Assembly: GCF_039535235.1 (NCBI RefSeq)
Contig: NZ_BAAAWU010000001.1
Location: 1,488,001-1,552,000, forward strand
Direction: 5' to 3'
Length of the DNA: 64,000 nt
Source of the DNA: Streptomyces roseoviridis
Lineage (GTDB): Bacteria; Actinomycetota; Actinomycetes; Streptomycetales; Streptomycetaceae
A model generated the notes under the pieces. That model saw nothing but the letters and a program-made list of their open reading frames with translations. It was not told the DNA's origin and made no database searches. Both the position numbers and the translations under genes were made by a program. How positions within the stretch are numbered: position 1 is the first letter of the stretch; every line of letters starts with the position of its first letter. Shown here one piece after another: positions 43,730 through 58,017 of the stretch.

Positions 43730-44212
43730 ATGGGTGTGTGGCAGCTCCTGATGGTCGCGACGGTGATGCTGCTCGGCCTGTTCGGGGTGCTGACGCCCGG
43801 CGTGCCGGGGACGTGGCTGGTGTGGGCGGCGATGCTGTGGTGGTCCCTGCACGAGCAGACGGGCCTCGCCTGGATCCTCCTCGTCTCCTCCACCGGACTG
43901 CTGCTCCTCACCCAGGTGGTCGTATGGCAGCTGCCGCCGCGCCGCTTCCGGGGCGTGGGCATCACCCGGCGGATGGTGACGTACGCGGGAGCGGGCGCGT
44001 TCCTGGGCTTCCTTCTGGTGCCGGTGCTGGGCGCGATCCCCGGGTTCGTCGGCGGGATCTACCTCTCCGAACGCCTCCGCCTCGGCGGCCACGGCCAGGC
44101 CCGGGCGGCCACGCGCACGGTGATGCGGGCGGCGGGGACGAGCGTCCTGGTCGAGCTGTTCGCGTGCCTGCTGATCGTGGGGGCGTGGGCGGGAGCGGTG
44201 ATCTGGGGCTGA
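43730..44212 (+). CDS. DUF456 family membrane protein
   Basis: 160 residues with four to five membrane helices (LLMVATVMLLGLFGVLTPGV, WLVWAAMLWWSLHEQTGLAW, ILLVSSTGLLLLTQVVVWQL, AGAGAFLGFLLVPVLGAIPG, LVELFACLLIVGAWAGAVIW). The conserved PGVPGTWLVW and PGFVGGIYLSERLR motifs match DUF456, a family of unknown function. The last codons (TGG GGC TGA CGG) are the first part of a 27-base tandem repeat that continues past the stop. Confidence 0.85.
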   Translation: MGVWQLLMVATVMLLGLFGVLTPGVPGTWLVWAAMLWWSLHEQTGLAWILLVSSTGLLLLTQVVVWQLPPRRFRGVGITRRMVTYAGAGAFLGFLLVPVLGAIPGFVGGIYLSERLRLGGHGQARAATRTVMRAAGTSVLVELFACLLIVGAWAGAVIWG

Positions 44213-44328
44213 CGGGCGCCGTCCGGGACCTGGGGCTGACGGGCACAGGCCGGGACCTGGGGCTGACGGGCACAGGCCGGGACCTGGGGCTGACGGGGGC
44301 CGACCGGGACCTGGGGCTGACGATCGCC
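44203..44328. repeat. 27-base tandem repeat (4.7 copies) that contains the DUF456 stop codon
   Basis: Units start at 44203, 44230, 44257, 44284 and 44311 (partial), each beginning CTGGGGCTGACGG. Units 2 and 3 are identical. The first unit includes the TGA of the DUF456 gene (44210-44212), so each unit carries an in-frame copy of that stop. Confidence 0.95.
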
Positions 44329-44394
44329 GGTCGGCGGTCGTCCGGCGCCGGATCACGGCTCAGACCGGACGCGGAAAGTCACGCGGTCCGCGGG

Positions 44395-44524
44395 GCACAT
44401 GCGGTCCCCGGGGCGTCATGCGGTCCCCGGGGGGGCGTGCGGCCCGCAGGGCACATGCGGTTCCCGCGGCGTCATGCCGTCCGCAGGGCACATGCGGTTC
44501 CCGCGGCGTCATGCCGTCCGCAGG
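44395..44524. repeat. 37-base tandem repeat that contains the ada-alkA stop codon
   Basis: Two identical 37-base units, 44451-44487 and 44488-44524, begin GCACATGCGGTTCCCG; a decayed 56-base version precedes at 44395-44450. The stop codon of the ada-alkA gene (44509-44511 on the minus strand) is in the last unit, and the same stop context is repeated downstream of the gene. Confidence 0.95.
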
Positions 44525-45933: not shown

Positions 45934-46015
45934 GCCTCCAGTGTGCGGGAGGCCACGGTGCCAGGCTGGCGGTTTTCGGACACGGAGGCGGATGGAACGG
46001 GGCGGGTGGGGGGTC

Positions 46016-46516
46016 GGGTCGGGGACCACCGCCGGGGCGGGGCCGACGGGCCCGGCGGAACGCCCGCCCGGTGGGCCCGGACGGCGGGGGGCCGGGAGGC
46101 GGGAGCGGGCCTGCTGGCCGCCGCAGCGCCACCCGGGCAGGGCGGGTCGGGACCACCGGCGGGGCGGGACCGACGGGCCGGCCGAACGCCCACCCGGTGG
46201 ACCCGGACGGCGGCAGGCGGGAGGCGGGCCTGCGGGCCGCCGGAGCGCCACCCGGGCAGGGCGGGTCGGGACCACCGGCGGGGCGGGGCCCACGGGCCCG
46301 GCCAAACGCCCACCCGGTGGACCCGGACGGCGGGGGGCCGGGAGGCGGGAGCGGGCCTGCCGGCCGCCGCAGCGCCGCCCGGGCAGGGCGGGTCGGGACC
46401 ACCGGCGGGGCGGGACCGACGGGCCCCGCCGAACGCCCGCCCGGCGGACCCGGACTGCCGGCAGGCGGGAGGCGGGGGCCGGCCTGCCGACCGCCGCAGC
46501 GCCACCCGGGCAGGGC
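46016..46516. repeat. Four tandem copies of a 119-128-base minisatellite
   Basis: Units start at 46016, 46144, 46263 and 46390, each beginning GGGTCGGG(G)ACCACC and ending CGCCCGGGCAGGGC or CACCCGGGCAGGGC. Lengths are 128, 119, 127 and 127. They share most bases with small insertions. The array lies between the ada-alkA start and rsgA end, in a 1.3-kb stretch without a supportable gene. Confidence 0.92.
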
Positions 46517-46682
46517 GGACGGACGGGAACCCGTCGGGGTGCCGCCCGACCAGTCCGACGACGGCAGACCGGCCGCGGGCCGGCGCGGGCCGGTGGGCTG
46601 GCGGGAAGGCCAGGACGGGGCCCGGCCGGACCCGCCGGGACGGCCCGGGCTCCTGGCCGGGCCCCGGCACCGCCGCGCCCTG

Positions 46683-47275
46683 CGGAGGGCGAGCGACGCG
46701 GCTCCCTCACCACCCGGGACGGCCCGGGCGGGCCCCGGTGCGGGCGCTGCCCGGCGCCCGTCAGCACAGGGCGACCGACGCGGCCCCGAACCCCCCGGGA
46801 CAGCCAGGACCTCGTCCTCGGGCGCAGGAGCTGCCCGGCGCCGGGCCGCGAGGGCCAGCGACGCGAGGCCCGGACCTCCGGGACAACCAGGACCTGGTCC
46901 GGTCCCCGGGCGCAGGCGCCGTCCAGCACAGACCGCGAGGGCGAGCGACGCGAGCCCCGGACCTCCGGGACAACCAGGACCTGGTCCGGTCCCCGGGCGC
47001 AGGGGCCGCCCGGCGCCCCTCGGGCAGGGCGAGCGACACGGCCCCGAACCCCGGGCCAACCAGGGACGCACCCCCAAACCACAGGCACCGCCCGACGCCA
47101 CTCAGGGCAGGGCCAGCAACGCAGCCCCCGACCCCCTGGGACAACCAGGGGACCGACCCCAGGCGCAGGCGCCGCCCGGCGCCGGGCCGCGAGGGCGAGC
47201 GGCAGGGTCCCGACCCGCCGGTGGCCGGGCCAGGACCCGTCCGCCCCCCAGGCCCGCGGCAGCGGTCCGGCCTCG
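46683..47275. repeat. About seven degenerate ~80-88-base repeats
   Basis: Successive units share GGGCGAGCGACGCG...CCCGGGACAACCAGGACC...GGGCGCAGG...GCCGCCCGGCGCC cores, beginning near 46683, 46768, 46848, 46934, 47020, 47101 and 47185. Copies three and four (46848-47019) are almost identical. The array ends just before the rsgA stop codon. Apparent long frames across it on both strands come from composition and repeat periodicity. Confidence 0.85.
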
Positions 47276-50335: not shown

Positions 50336-50941
50336 ATGAACACGAACCGACCCTCCGACACGAACCGACCCTCCCCCTCCTCCTCCCCCCTTCCCGCTCC
50401 CCGTCTCGACGTCATCGGCCTCGTCACGGCCGACATGGCGGCGTCCCTCGCCTTCTACCGGCTGCTTGGGCTCGACGTGCCCGACGGTGCCGAGAACAGG
50501 CCGCACGTGGAGGTGGCGCTGCCGGGCGGGATGTGGGTGCTGTGGGACAGCGAGGACGTCGTACGGTCCTACGACCCGGCGTGGACGCGGCCGGCCGGCG
50601 GGGGCGAGCGGGTGACGCTCGCCTTCCGTCTACGGGAGCCGGGCGAGGTCGACGCGCTGTACGAGACGCTGACCGCCGCCGGTCATCGCGGCCACCTCGA
50701 GCCGTGGGACGCCGTCTGGGGCCAGCGATACGCGGTCGTGCTCGACCCGGACGGGTCCGCGGTGTCCCTCTACGCCGACCGTGCCGGCGAGGCCGCCGGC
50801 ACGGAGGACGGGGACGGCACGGAGGACGCGGACCGCTCGAAGGACGGGGACCGCTCGAAGGACGGGGACGGCACGGAGGACGCGGACCGCTCGAAGGACG
50901 GGGACCGCTCGAAGGACGCGGACCGCACGGACGCCGTGTGA
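50336..50941 (+). CDS. VOC (glyoxalase/bleomycin-resistance) family protein with repeat-coded acidic tail
   Basis: 201 residues from ATG 50336 (MNTNRPSDTNRPSPS). One VOC domain spans about 20-140 (LDVIGLVTADMAASLAFYRL, GMWVLWDSEDV, ERVTLAFRLREPGEVDALYE, YAVVLDPDGSAVSLYAD). The last ~50 residues are a charged tail of GTEDADRSKDGDRSKD units coded by a 54-base tandem repeat. The final 172 bases overlap the C-terminal coding part of the AraC-type gene on the other strand. Function of the VOC domain is unknown; many bind metals or toxins. Confidence 0.8.
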   Translation: MNTNRPSDTNRPSPSSSPLPAPRLDVIGLVTADMAASLAFYRLLGLDVPDGAENRPHVEVALPGGMWVLWDSEDVVRSYDPAWTRPAGGGERVTLAFRLREPGEVDALYETLTAAGHRGHLEPWDAVWGQRYAVVLDPDGSAVSLYADRAGEAAGTEDGDGTEDADRSKDGDRSKDGDGTEDADRSKDGDRSKDADRTDAV

Positions 50942-51624: not shown

Positions 51625-51699
51625 CGCTCCAGGGTAGGCGGGCCGTCCGACACCGCCCGAGCGGCCGGACGGAGTGGTGCGCGAGCCGACGGGCCGGGC

Positions 51700-51835
51700 G
51701 GTTCCGTCCGCCTCCGCGCGCGGTCGTCAGTCCGGTTCCGTCCACTTCCGCGCACGGCCGTCAGTCCGGTTCCGTCCGCCTCCGCGCACGGCCGTCAGTC
51801 CGGTTCCGTCCGCCTCCGCGCACGGTCGTCAGTCC
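51700..51835. repeat. 34-base tandem repeat (four copies) that contains the yihY-type stop codon
   Basis: Units start at 51700, 51734, 51768 and 51802, each beginning GGTTCCGTCC and ending with CGTCAGTCC or nearly so. The stop codon of the membrane protein gene (51829-51831 on the minus strand) is in the last unit, and its context GGACTGACG is repeated in the units downstream of the gene. Confidence 0.94.
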
Positions 51836-52953
51836 TTCTCCCACCCCGCGTGCAGCCGTGACTTCACGTCGTCCGGCGGCAGGAACCGCGACCAGCGTTC
51901 GGGGAACTCGGACGGCATGTCCGGGTCGTCCTCGTCCACGTCCTCCGCCTCCGCCCGGAGGCGGGCCATCAGTTCGGCGGCCTGGACGGCGCGGGCGCGT
52001 TCGTTGGCCTCGCGCGCGGCGGCGGTGGCGACGGAGGGCCAGACGCGGTCGATGGCCGCGTTGACGGCGGCGCCGACCAGGACGGCGAAGGCGGAGATGC
52101 CGATCCAGAGCAGGACGGCGATGGGGGCGGCGAGGGAACCGTAGATGGTGGGGCCCTCGACCTGGCTGGTCAGGTAGATGCGCAGCAGGAAACTGCCGAG
52201 GACCCACATCGCGAGGGCGACGAGGGCGCCCGGGATGTCCTCGATCCACGGGGAGCGGACCGGCACGGACACGTGGTACAGCGTCGTCAGGAAGGCGATG
52301 GACAGCAGGATGACGGCCGGCCAGTACAGGACGGAGACGACCTCCGTGCCGAAGGGGACGAACTCCACCACCCGGTCCGGGCCGACGACCGCCAGCGGCA
52401 GGACGACGGCGCCGATGATCAGGGCGATGATGTAGAGCAGGAAGGCGAGCAGCCGGGTCTTGACGATGCCGCGGTGACCGTCGAGGCCGTACATGACGGT
52501 GATGGTGTCGATGAAGACGTTGACGGCACGGGAACCGGACCACAGGGCGATGGCGAAGCCGAGGGAGATCAGGTCGGGGCGCTTGCCGTGGGTGACGTCC
52601 TCCAGGAGGGGGCGGGCGATCTCGTTGACGCCCCGGTCGGACAGGACCGTCCGGGCGGCGTGGAGGATGTTCTCCTCGATGCTGGCGACGGTGTCGGTGT
52701 TGGTCCATTCGTCGGCGTAGCCGAGGAGGGCGATCAGGCCGAGCAGCAGCGGCGGCAGGGACAGCAGGGTGAAGAAGGCGGCTTCGGCGGCGAGGCCGAG
52801 GATGCGGTACTCGATGCACGAGTTGACCGTGTCCTTGAGGAGCAGCCAGACCATTTTGCGCTTGGAGACGTTGCGGTACAGGACGCGGGCTCGGTGGAGC
52901 CTGCTCCAGGGCCGCCGCTCGGGTCGTTCGGGTGTTTCGTTTGCTGCCTGCAC
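51829..52953 (-). CDS. YihY/BrkB family membrane protein
   Basis: 374 residues with six membrane helices (AAEAAFFTLLSLPPLLLGLI, LISLGFAIALWSGSRAVNVF, RLLAFLLYIIALIIGAVVLP, SVLYWPAVILLSIAFLTTLY, LVALAMWVLGSFLLRIYLTS, APIAVLLWIGISAFAVLVGA), the YihY/virulence factor BrkB layout. The C-terminal 80 residues are cytoplasmic and acidic (DVDEDDPDMPSE). The start GTG 52953 overlaps its AAGGAG(GTG) site, so a start a few codons later is possible. Function is unknown. Divergent from the AidB-like gene with only 17 bases between starts. Confidence 0.87.
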   Translation of the reverse strand: MQAANETPERPERRPWSRLHRARVLYRNVSKRKMVWLLLKDTVNSCIEYRILGLAAEAAFFTLLSLPPLLLGLIALLGYADEWTNTDTVASIEENILHAARTVLSDRGVNEIARPLLEDVTHGKRPDLISLGFAIALWSGSRAVNVFIDTITVMYGLDGHRGIVKTRLLAFLLYIIALIIGAVVLPLAVVGPDRVVEFVPFGTEVVSVLYWPAVILLSIAFLTTLYHVSVPVRSPWIEDIPGALVALAMWVLGSFLLRIYLTSQVEGPTIYGSLAAPIAVLLWIGISAFAVLVGAAVNAAIDRVWPSVATAAAREANERARAVQAAELMARLRAEAEDVDEDDPDMPSEFPERWSRFLPPDDVKSRLHAGWEKD

Positions 52954-52970
52954 CTCCTTACCGTATCGGC

Positions 52971-54635
52971 ATGGCAGCCGGCACCCACACCGTGACCAAC
53001 CAGGCTCCGCCCCTGGTGGCGTACGACATGTTCACGTCCGATCGGGCCCTCGCGGAGGCCGTCGAGCGGCATCTGCCACCGGACGTCCACGACGAGGCGA
53101 TCGGGCACCTGACCTCCTTCGGAGTGTCGGCGGGCTCGGCACAGGCGCAGGGATGGGGGACGCTCGCGAACGACTGTCCGCCGCGGCTGCGCACCCACGA
53201 CCGGTACGGCAACCGGATCGACGAGGTCGACTTCCATCCGTCGTGGCACCGGCTGCTCGGCCGGGCGGTGACGGCCGGTCTCTCGGGCGGCGCGTGGGGC
53301 CGTCCGGGTGGTCATGTGTGGCGGGCGGCCGGTTTCGTCCTGGCCGCGCAGGTGGAGGCGGGGCACCTGTGTCCGCTGTCGATGACGCACGCGGCGGTGC
53401 CGGCGCTGCGGGCCGAGCCGGAGCTCGCCGAGGCGTGGGAGCCGCTGCTGGCCTCGCGGGTGTACGAGCAGGGGCTGCGGCCGCCGCTGGAGAAGGCGGG
53501 CGTGCTGCTCGGGATGGGCATGACGGAGAAGCAGGGCGGCAGTGACGTACGGGCGAACACGACCCGCGCGGAGCCGCTGGCGGCCGACGGGGAGTACGTG
53601 CTCACGGGGCACAAGTGGTTCTGCTCCGCCCCGATGTCCGACGGCTTCCTGGTCCTGGCGCAGGCCCCGGCGGGGCTGACCTGCTTCCTGGTGCCCCGGG
53701 TGCTGCCGGACGGGGCGCGCAACGCGTTCCTGATCCAGCGGCTCAAGGACAAGCTGGGCAACCGGTCGAACGCGTCCGCCGAGGTGGAGTTCGACGGGAC
53801 GACGTGGGCGCGCCGGGTCGGCGAGGAGGGCCGGGGGGTGCGCACGATCATCGGCATGGTGGCGGCGACCCGGCTCGACTGCGTGCTGGGGTCGGCGGGT
53901 CTGATGCGGCAGGCGGTGGCGCAGGCCGTGCACCACGCCTCGTACCGCAGGGCGTTCGGCGGGCTGCTCGTCGACAAGCCGCTGATGCGGAACGTGCTGG
54001 CCGATCTGGCCCTGGAGTCGGAGGCGGCCACCGTGCTCGGGCTGCGGCTGGCGGCGGCGTACGACGCGGCCGGAGCCGGAGGTGCGGACGCGGAGGCGGA
54101 GCGGGCGCTGCTGCGGGTCGCGGTGCCGGTGGCGAAGTACTGGGTGACGAAACGGTGCACCCCGCTGGTGGCCGAAGCGCTGGAGTGCCTGGGCGGGAAC
54201 GGGTACGTCGAGGAGTCGGGGCTGCCCCGGCTGCTGCGGGAGTCGCCGCTGAACTCCATCTGGGAGGGCGCGGGGAACGTGCAGGCGCTGGACGTGCTGC
54301 GGGCGCTGCAGAGGGAGCCGGCGGCGCTGAACGCGTTCCTGGAGGAGGTCGGCCGGGCCCGCGGGGCGGATCACCGGCTGGACCGGGCGATCCGGGACCT
54401 GCTGGCCGAACTGGCGGACCTGGAGGGGATCGAGGCGCGGGCGCGGCGCCTGGTGGAGCGGATGGCGCGGGTGCTCCAGGGTGCGCTGCTGGTGCGGTGG
54501 GCGCCGCCGGAGGTCGCGGACGCGTTCTGTGCCTCGCGGCTCGGCGGCGACTGGGGGGCGGCGTTCGGGACGCTGCCGCACACGCTCGACCTGGGGGCGC
54601 TGGTGGCGCGGGCGCGGCCCGTGGACGCGGATTGA
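52971..54635 (+). CDS. AidB-like acyl-CoA dehydrogenase family protein
   Basis: 554 residues from ATG 52971. It is longer than ordinary acyl-CoA dehydrogenases and matches the AidB branch: N-terminal VDFHPSWHRLLGRAV, GMTEKQGGSDVRANTT, YVLTGHKWFCSAPMSD, LKDKLGNRSNASAEVEFDGT, GMVAATRLDCVLGSAGLMRQ, CLGGNGYVEESGLPRLLRES and NSIWEGAGNVQALDVLRAL. AidB binds FAD and DNA and is induced with Ada during alkylation stress in E. coli; an Ada-AlkA gene lies 7 kb away, but no shared operator is evident. In actinobacteria such proteins may simply be isovaleryl-CoA-type dehydrogenases. Confidence 0.9.
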   Translation: MAAGTHTVTNQAPPLVAYDMFTSDRALAEAVERHLPPDVHDEAIGHLTSFGVSAGSAQAQGWGTLANDCPPRLRTHDRYGNRIDEVDFHPSWHRLLGRAVTAGLSGGAWGRPGGHVWRAAGFVLAAQVEAGHLCPLSMTHAAVPALRAEPELAEAWEPLLASRVYEQGLRPPLEKAGVLLGMGMTEKQGGSDVRANTTRAEPLAADGEYVLTGHKWFCSAPMSDGFLVLAQAPAGLTCFLVPRVLPDGARNAFLIQRLKDKLGNRSNASAEVEFDGTTWARRVGEEGRGVRTIIGMVAATRLDCVLGSAGLMRQAVAQAVHHASYRRAFGGLLVDKPLMRNVLADLALESEAATVLGLRLAAAYDAAGAGGADAEAERALLRVAVPVAKYWVTKRCTPLVAEALECLGGNGYVEESGLPRLLRESPLNSIWEGAGNVQALDVLRALQREPAALNAFLEEVGRARGADHRLDRAIRDLLAELADLEGIEARARRLVERMARVLQGALLVRWAPPEVADAFCASRLGGDWGAAFGTLPHTLDLGALVARARPVDAD

Positions 54636-54743
54636 CGCCGGACGGCTGAACGTGCGTGTGGGGGGACCGTCTCGCGGGTGACGGTGGTGCTTTGTGCCGC
54701 GCGTGCCAGGGGTGGACCTGAGGGGGTCGGCGCGCGCGGAGGA

Positions 54744-54783
54744 GCGGAGGGTGGTGCTGCGCCGACACGGCACCACCCTCCGC
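54744..54783 (+). terminator. Stem-loop terminator after the AidB-like gene
   Basis: A perfect 14-bp inverted repeat (54744-54757 and 54770-54783) with a 12-base loop, 108 bases past the stop codon, followed by TTCGGTTCC. Confidence 0.75.
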
Positions 54784-54938
54784 TTCGGTTCCACCCTCCT
54801 GGACGGGGGCGGGGGTCGCCAGGGTTGCAAAGGGTTGCAGGATTACCCGAAGCGCCCCGCGCGCGGCGCTGCGGAGGGGCACGATGGGCGCCGGGACGCA
54901 CCGAGTGCACAACCGATACAGCACCGATACGGCAGCAT

Positions 54939-55120
54939 GCCGGCCGGCACGACAGCCAGACACCAGACAGCCAGACAGCCAGACACCAAACACCAAACAC
55001 CAAACACCAGACAGCGACACAGCCACACAGCCACACAGCCACACAGCACAACGGCACCACACCACAACGGCACGACAGCACCGCAGCACCACAGCAAAAC
55101 AGCCAGCAGGACAGCACCAC
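54939..55120 (+). other. 182-base T-free, CA-rich leader of the GAF regulator gene
   Basis: No T occurs on the plus strand from 54939 to 55120. The tract is built of short repeats: ACAGCCAG, three ACCAAAC units near 54985-55005, then CACAGCCA units near 55018-55045, then CACCACA/GCACAAC. It begins after the AidB terminator and ends 41 bases before the regulator start. As RNA it would be free of U and nearly unstructured. The reading frame of the regulator is open through it, but a GGGAGGGACCG site at 55150 marks the true start. Confidence 0.9.
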
Positions 55121-55161
55121 TTCAGCGCCGATGCAGCACCGCGGGTGGCCGGGAGGGACCG

Positions 55162-56481
55162 ATGAACAACACGCAGCTCGACCTGAACCGGCTGGCCGCC
55201 ATGGATTCCGCCCAGGCGACCCGGCTGCTGCTCAAGGTCCGCGAGGCGACGCTGTCCGGCCGGACCCCACCGGTGGCACCGCGCCCGGTGATCGACGCGT
55301 CCTGGCGGCGGATGTTCCGGCTCGGCCTGAACCCGGACCAGGGCACGAGCAGCGTGCTGCTGCGGCGCGACGAACTGGAGGAGCGGCGGCGGACGACGGC
55401 GCTCGGCGAGGTGATGCGGACGCTCAGCGCGGGGCTGGCGGGGATCGCCGACGCCTCCATGCAGATCATGGTGGTGACGGACGAGCAGGGCCGGGTGTTG
55501 TGGCGGGAGGGCAACATGGCGGTGCTGCGCCGGGCCCACGGCATCTGCCTGGAGGAGGGGGCGGCCTGGAGCGAGCACGACACCGGGACGAACGCGGTGG
55601 GCACGGCGCTCGCCATGGGCAGGGCCGTCCAGGTGCACTCGGCCGAGCACTACGTCCACCAGCTGCACAACTGGACCTGTGCCGCCGCCCCCGTCCACGA
55701 CCCGCGTGACCAGCGGCTGCTCGGCATCGTGGACGTGAGCGGTCCGGCGTCCAGCTTCCATCCGGCGACGCTGGCCCTGGTGGCCTCGGTGGCGCAGCTG
55801 GCGGAGGCGGAGATGCGGCAGCGGCACCTGCGGTCGATCGAGCGGCTGCGGTCGGTGGCCGCGCCGATCCTGTGCCGGGTGGGCGGCCGGGCGATCGCGG
55901 TGGACACGCACGGCTGGACGGCGGCGGTGACCGGGATGGCGCCGGTGGACCGGCTGGCGCTGCCCAAGTCCTTCCGGGCGGGCCGGACGTGGCTGCCGTC
56001 GCTGGGGATGTGTGCGGTGGAGCCGTTGCCGGGCGGCTGGCTGCTGCGGGTCGAGGAGGAGACCCCGCCGGCCGGTGCCGGCTCGGGCGCGGCGAGCCGG
56101 GTGGTCCTCGACCTGAGCCGGCCGCGCCGCTGGACGGTGGCGGTGTCGGGCGCGGCCGGCAGCTGGTCGCAGGAGCTGAGCCCGCGCCATGCGGAGCTGC
56201 TGTATCTGCTCGCCCTGCACCCGGAGGGGCGGACGGCGGCGGACCTGGCCCAGGACGTGTTCGGCGACCGGACCCGGACGGTGACGGTACGGGCGGAGCT
56301 GTCGCGGGTGCGCCGCAATCTGGCGGGGGTCCTCGCCCACCGCCCGTACCGCTTCAGCGAGGAGGTCGAGGTCGAGGTCGTCACCCCGTCCCACCCGGCC
56401 GACCTCCTCCCCCACTCCACGGCCCCGGCGGTCCGCGCGGTGCGCGAGGGGCGGACGGGACGGGCGGGACGGGCCGGATAG
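55162..56481 (+). CDS. GAF-domain transcriptional regulator
   Basis: 439 residues from ATG 55162 (GGGAGGGACCG upstream). The N-terminal part with VIDASWRRMFRLGLNPDQGT resembles the AcoR-type sensor region; the GAF domain is about 85-220 (IMVVTDEQGRVLWREGNMAV, EGAAWSEHDTGTNAVGTALA, NWTCAAAPVHDPRDQRLLGI). There is no AAA+ domain; instead the C-terminus holds a winged-helix-like DNA-binding part (HAELLYLLALHPEGRTAADL, RTVTVRAELSRVRRNLAGVL). Such regulators control aldehyde/alcohol or acetoin-type catabolism in actinobacteria. The gene ends in a short GGGACGGGC repeat that gives a RTGRAGRAG tail. Confidence 0.85.
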   Translation: MNNTQLDLNRLAAMDSAQATRLLLKVREATLSGRTPPVAPRPVIDASWRRMFRLGLNPDQGTSSVLLRRDELEERRRTTALGEVMRTLSAGLAGIADASMQIMVVTDEQGRVLWREGNMAVLRRAHGICLEEGAAWSEHDTGTNAVGTALAMGRAVQVHSAEHYVHQLHNWTCAAAPVHDPRDQRLLGIVDVSGPASSFHPATLALVASVAQLAEAEMRQRHLRSIERLRSVAAPILCRVGGRAIAVDTHGWTAAVTGMAPVDRLALPKSFRAGRTWLPSLGMCAVEPLPGGWLLRVEEETPPAGAGSGAASRVVLDLSRPRRWTVAVSGAAGSWSQELSPRHAELLYLLALHPEGRTAADLAQDVFGDRTRTVTVRAELSRVRRNLAGVLAHRPYRFSEEVEVEVVTPSHPADLLPHSTAPAVRAVREGRTGRAGRAG

Positions 56482-57219: not shown

Positions 57220-57238
57220 CGCGTGGCGCCGCACACAC

Positions 57239-57345
57239 CCGCCGGACGCACCCGCCGCCGACCGCGCCCGCCGGACGCACCCCCCGCCGCACACACCCGC
57301 CGGACGCACGCCCGCCGACCGCACCCGCCCCGCCGGCCAGACCGC
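57239..57345. repeat. 29-base-spaced CCGCCGGACGCAC repeats
   Basis: CCGCCGGACGCAC occurs at 57239, 57268 and 57297, with degenerate CCGCCGACCGCACCCGCC units between and after. The array fills most of the gap between the secreted protein's terminator and the acetyltransferase gene. Confidence 0.85.
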
Positions 57346-57447
57346 CCGCCGCATTCGCCGCCTGGACAGGGCGTCCGGCATGCGGACAGCATTCCGCCAG
57401 GACCGAACACAGTGGGAATCCGGCCCTCCGCATGATGCGATGAAGCC

Positions 57448-58017
57448 ATGAGCATCACTCTCACCACCTGGTCCCTCGAGCAGACCTCGCCGTCCGACCT
57501 GCGCCCGGTCCCCGCTCCCGAGGGCGGGGACCTGCGGATCGTGCGGGCCGAGGTGCCCTCGCCGGAGTTCAGCCGCTTCCTCTATACCGCGGTCGGCGGC
57601 GACATCCGCTGGACCGACCGGCTGCCGCTGACCTACGCGCAGTGGCAGGAGATAGTGGAGCGGCCCGGCGCCGAGATCTGGGTCGCGTACGAGAAGGGGA
57701 CGCCGGCCGGGTACGTGGAGCTGGAGGCGCAGCCCGACGGCGTGGTGGAGATCGTGTACTTCGGCCTGATCCCGGCCTTCCGCGGCCGCGGCATCGGCGG
57801 CCACCTCCTGTCGGTCGGGGTCGAGCGGGCCTGGGACCTGGCCGAGCGCTGGCCGGACCGGGAGCCCACCGAGCGGGTGTGGCTGCACACCTGCTCGCTC
57901 GACGGCGAGCACGCGATGGCCAACTACGAGCGCCGCGGCTTCCGGCTCTTCGACACCAAGGTGGAGCAGACCGAGGCCGCCGAGAACCCCGGCCCGTGGC
58001 CGGGCGCGTTCGCCTGA
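57448..58017 (+). CDS. GNAT family N-acetyltransferase
   Basis: 189 residues. The acetyl-CoA-binding motif is IPAFRGRGIGGHLLSVGVER (R/Q-x2-G-x-G/A type) at about residues 110-130, and the C-terminal HAMANYERRGFRLF is the usual end of a GNAT fold. The central EIVYFGLIP strand precedes it. Substrate unknown. A bidirectional terminator lies 48 bases past the stop, and the sulfate assimilation operon starts beyond it. Confidence 0.9.
   Translation: MSITLTTWSLEQTSPSDLRPVPAPEGGDLRIVRAEVPSPEFSRFLYTAVGGDIRWTDRLPLTYAQWQEIVERPGAEIWVAYEKGTPAGYVELEAQPDGVVEIVYFGLIPAFRGRGIGGHLLSVGVERAWDLAERWPDREPTERVWLHTCSLDGEHAMANYERRGFRLFDTKVEQTEAAENPGPWPGAFA

Follow-up and report, generated by a model that had tools for sequence, protein, structure and literature searches.

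A probable lineage-specific expansion of short CA-rich repeats, free of T, ahead of a GAF-domain regulator gene of Streptomyces roseoviridis

The stretch of DNA analysed here, hereafter the window, covers 64,000 nucleotides (positions 1488001-1552000) of a 7.45-Mb Streptomyces-type chromosome. A gene for an AidB-like acyl-CoA dehydrogenase (AidB_N and Acyl-CoA_dh domains), which runs on the forward strand from a predicted start at 52932 to 54635, is followed on the same strand by the gene of a GAF-domain regulator of 439 amino acids (55162-56481; Pfam PF01590, E=4e-13). Close orthologs of the regulator align with it from residue 1, and its ATG at 55162 is preceded by the Shine-Dalgarno sequence GGGAGGGA (55151-55158, forward strand), which reads GGGAGRGA in most orthologs. 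The orthologs are clear across Streptomyces, most of them with the same upstream neighbour, and a literature search for the AidB-GAF regulator pair in Streptomyces returned nothing. It can be observed that five blocks are common to the ortholog leaders: the palindrome GGTGGTGCTGCGCCGACACGGCACCACC, the repeat GTTGCA-N4-GTTGCA, GGCACGATGGGC, GTGCAGAACCGATACAGCACC, and GGTGGCTGGGAGAGACCG, which stands directly before the ATG. The palindrome, 28 bases long (54750-54777) and located between aidB and the regulator, is the 3' hairpin, on the opposite strand, of the scr6106 family of small RNAs (Rfam RF02827; 54742-54809, reverse strand). In the passage of PMC8388888 that cites Vockenhuber et al., scr6106 is given as one of eleven confirmed small RNAs of S. 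coelicolor. The match in the window (46 bits, E=2e-4) misses the family's gathering score of 52.5 bits although the 3' hairpin is intact, and one ortholog locus (L042) passes it with 75.4 bits. Across the genus the hairpin, with its invariant loop, hardly varies (about 85 of the 95 loci examined show virtually no change), and it is single-copy in the genome. The direct repeat GTTGCA-N4-GTTGCA (54824-54839, forward strand; 10-base period) also occurs once in the genome and is conserved in nearly all orthologs. This repeat precedes the putative 5' end of scr6106 by 15 bases and also lies upstream of the regulator, so that it may serve as operator or promoter for either of them.

Downstream of these elements, between the end of the dehydrogenase gene and the regulator ATG, lies the tract with which this study is concerned. 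The initial annotation had described a 182-base run without T ahead of the regulator, and its extent proved exact (54939-55120, forward strand): T is found at the flanking positions 54938 and 55121 and nowhere between. C accounts for 78 of its bases, A for 70 and G for 34, a C+A share of 81%, and no other T-free run in the window is as long. Its description as short CA-rich repeats is borne out as well. Most of the tract is a degenerate tandem array in which nearly identical units of 7 and 8 bases (GACAGCCA, GACACCA, AACACCA and CACAGCCA) form blocks, and for which TRF reports a score of 103 at 54951-55047 on the forward strand, with a consensus period of 8 bases (GACAGCCA), approximately 12.8 copies and a 90% match. 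The units are arranged head to tail, as in a minisatellite, and the repeat periods of 7, 8 and 11 bases include no multiple of three.

The rarity of such a run depends on what it is compared with. When the window is modelled as a Markov chain of order 1, 3 or 5 (30 runs each), the longest run free of T or of A is expected to be about 70 bases per 64 kb, and reached 97 at most; the 182-base run is not random sequence, and to that extent the judgement that it is very unlikely stands. That judgement is qualified by the repetitive nature of the tract, in which only about 62 of the 182 bases remain novel after removal of copies of at least 7 bases (median 158 for random 182-base pieces), and by the genome as a whole, in which a search for similar tracts found 21 stretches of 147 bases or more without T (11 on the forward and 10 on the reverse strand), the largest of 328 bases. 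T-free runs of at least 62 bases occur eight times in the window, so that a seed without T is nothing unusual and duplication accounts for the remainder. Between 2 and 24 such long runs are present per genome in other sampled Streptomyces. What distinguishes the tract among the 21 is its CA-richness, the highest of all. The longest of these runs (L147, at G000:C1:388203) is itself an array, of approximately 44-base units (GGACCGGCGCCACCCCCACGACGCCCGGCACGACAC).

Comparison with the orthologs locates the tract precisely. In the usual leader, GATACAGCACC is followed by about 20 bases, including the Shine-Dalgarno sequence, and then by the ATG. Here, the leader is broken after GATACAGCACCG, which ends at 54926, and is picked up by CGGGTGGCCGGGAGGGACCGATG at 55142, leaving a lineage-specific insertion or expansion of 215 bases (54927-55141, forward strand). 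Its deletion in silico restores the arrangement of the orthologs and reconstructs an empty site, GATACAGCACCG joined directly to CGGGTGGCCGGGAGGGACCGATG (GATACAGCACCGCGGGTGGC), which at the join is identical to the leader of S. lateritius (L052). On the upstream side, the insertion is abutted by the conserved leader block GTGCANAACCGATACAGCACCG (54905-54926, forward strand). Two copies of CAGCACCG on the same strand bracket the expansion, the left one (54919-54926) being part of the ancestral leader and the right one located at 55134-55141. The palindrome core and the ATG are 405 bases apart here, compared with 137-258 (mostly 195-196) in 36 Streptomyces orthologs. In the same interval, the longest T-free run of these 36 is at most 40 bases, and it is at most 46 bases in about 28 further ortholog loci. 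The similar tract that was to be sought at orthologous positions is thus absent from every locus sampled, and a search of approximately 390 Streptomyces, made in two draws of largely overlapping genomes, found no sister species with a long tract of intermediate size. In a separate group of relatives (L137, L140-L143), about 60 extra bases lie between the GGCACGATGG and GCAGAACCGATAC blocks, so that leader spacing is tolerant there too.

At the insertion point itself, the relatives form a series. A single CAGCACC is present in most orthologs, two copies of an 11-base unit in the genome G335 (L118, CAGCACCGACACAGCACCG), and three in S. roseicoloratus (L051, CAGCTCCGACGCAGCACCGAGACAGCACCG). The leader of S. 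sp. SKN60 (L078) is about 55 bases above the mode, and much of the excess is found at the same point. Copy number therefore differs among relatives at one site, from one, two and three units to the 215-base tract, which is the behaviour of a minisatellite, as seen here with one genome per species. The site is therefore prone to growth among the close relatives of this genome, with the long tract as the extreme case.

Given the directly observed insertion point, the bracketing CAGCACCG copies, the series of one, two and three units and the lack of a long tract in the relatives, the tract is very probably a lineage-specific tandem-duplication expansion of a short T-poor, CA-rich motif in the regulator leader. 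The seed would have been the motif CAGCACCGAnA, duplicated repeatedly in tandem once this lineage had diverged from the sampled relatives, presumably through slippage during replication or through unequal exchange. The absence of T would go back to a seed that already lacked it and would have been multiplied with each copy, rather than kept by selection. The outcome would be a weakly structured leader longer by about 215 nt, most likely with little or no regulatory role. Two observations sit less easily with this account. Towards its middle the tract has lost close similarity to CAGCACCG, so that some of it might have arisen differently; CAGCACC occurs four times in the insert, a number reached by 5 of 1000 Markov sequences. 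In addition, none of the 78 C positions displays a C-to-T change, which could hint at selection or at a very recent origin; independent substitutions between units are few. The initial annotation had suggested a strand-asymmetric slippage product. Slippage is supported by the comparison of orthologs; a replication-strand cause was rejected, since the genome's long T-free runs, many of which lie in coding repeats, divide 11:10 whether they are sorted by strand or by orientation relative to dnaA.

An origin of the 215 bases by import, or as the remnant of a mobile element, rather than by local expansion is highly improbable. Unrelated loci of other Streptomyces do contain CA-rich stretches that are 73-87% identical over 50-100 bases; the one that was inspected, however, is a simple repeat itself (a TGGTGCTG array in L145), and the local CAGCACC unit is found both within the insert and on either side of it, with neither a gene nor an obvious terminal inverted repeat to be seen inside. 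Similarly, it is barely credible that the regulator is also made with the Thr/His/Gln-rich N-terminal extension that had been proposed, starting at ATG 54937 or further upstream. The regulator frame is indeed open through the tract, from 54694 onwards. The stop codons TAA, TAG and TGA all contain T, so that a T-free run is trivially open in all three forward frames. Moreover, the 7- and 8-base units shift the frame, the in-frame ATG at 54937 lacks a Shine-Dalgarno sequence, and the Shine-Dalgarno sequence and ATG at 55162 are common to the orthologs, which start there; no conserved upstream start, ribosome-binding site or frame was found.

The tract is most likely transcribed as part of the 5' leader, since every conserved promoter-like block precedes the insertion, and no more than about 20 bases, among them the Shine-Dalgarno sequence, separate it from the ATG. 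By the same arrangement, the insertion would be preceded by at least part of the ancestral promoter. A sigma-70 scan of 54500-55300 found no promoter-like site. As for structure, the expectation that the transcript would hardly fold is correct in absolute terms: its minimum free energy is -23.6 kcal/mol, whereas 798 pieces of 182 nt sampled from the window give -86.4 +/- 13.5 kcal/mol, every one of them folding more strongly. Relative to its own dinucleotide shuffles, however, the tract folds slightly better (z -2.07), and its weak folding is accordingly attributable to composition. Rfam gave chance-level matches only for the tract. Nothing here shows selection for low structure, no functional claim is supported, and the suggested role as target of an RNA-binding protein found no evidence.

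An unstructured leader that aids ribosome loading had also been envisaged, and its premises partly hold, in that structure is low and transcription probable. On this reading the insertion, although recent, would be rich enough in ACA to work as a standby site or enhancer and to increase translation of the regulator, much as ACA motifs upstream of the Shine-Dalgarno sequence do for yifK and dppA of Salmonella. In enteric bacteria, initiation is greatly increased by ACA motifs near the Shine-Dalgarno sequence (PMC3879156), the insert contains 24 ACA triplets, and the tract is the least structured 182-nt piece of the window. Such an effect is nevertheless unlikely. The triplets are not enriched (24, compared with 25 expected from dinucleotides), the tract folds no worse than shuffles and is missing from every sampled relative, and predicted accessibility of the Shine-Dalgarno sequence with and without the insert changes in no consistent direction (0.48/0.36, 0.33/0.24 and 0.18/0.28 for leaders of 60, 120 and 300 nt). 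The yifK and dppA leaders share with the tract CA-rich RNA upstream of the Shine-Dalgarno sequence (PMC3879156), but they are short, conserved and near that sequence, whereas the tract is long and unconserved, with ACA not above dinucleotide content. Recruitment of Rho by C-rich, G-poor, untranslated RNA, attenuating the regulator transcript, is very unlikely: the tract is 43% C and 19% G, untranslated and little structured, but its C-over-G excess of 32 per 100 nt is equalled or exceeded at no fewer than 12 other places in the window, the lack of U limits the YC dimers preferred by Rho to CC (19), and the tract is not conserved. It is also decidedly unlikely that the expansion was kept because a long U-free, unstructured leader gave the regulator of this lineage a new post-transcriptional setting; if it were so, candidate routes would be standby binding of ribosomes, an RNA-binding protein or evasion of RNases that act at U, and a regulatory leader would have been created by slippage. 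Absent from the 36 and the about 28 further ortholog loci, the element is no conserved cis-regulatory leader, and because no sampled relative has it, the tract is most likely an ordinary copying accident rather than a conserved RNA device. What is genuinely conserved here is the scr6106-like hairpin and the GTTGCA repeat, both upstream of the tract, and the hairpin and repeat merit more attention than the tract does.

Ordinary lineage-specific tandem repeats fit the anatomy of the tract. Like bacterial intergenic minisatellites or VNTRs produced by slippage, it consists of short head-to-tail units in homogeneous variant blocks, is intergenic, and is absent or of different size in relatives; it differs in having a degenerate unit (7, 8 or 11 bases), and the comparison here is drawn from one genome per species. 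The closest well-described parallel is provided by the tandem repeats of Borgs (PMC9879509), which are likewise recent, lineage-specific, flanked by partial repeats and biased on one strand, with A up and T down. Those repeats are perfect and occur genome-wide in archaeal extrachromosomal elements, whereas the present array is imperfect and lies in a bacterial chromosome. The locus offers a clear example of how an odd low-complexity leader can originate in a high-GC genome, with the empty site and small duplications preserved in relatives, and a warning against inferring open frames or RNA function from T-free stretches.

The genome seems rich in tandem repeats. Tandem-array density is 2.1 kb per 100 kb, compared with 0.5-1.7 in four relatives, as estimated from limited samples, and the window contains further arrays with units of 18-127 bases at 44187-44524, 46015-46518, 46749-47201, 50799-50931 and 51699-51835. 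A second intergenic T-free run, of 129 bases (57225-57353), is composed of CGCACCCGCCGC-type repeats and is located ahead of a GNAT gene at 57448; in the matching stretch of orthologs the longest T-free run is 29-82 bases, and this run, too, looks lineage-specific.
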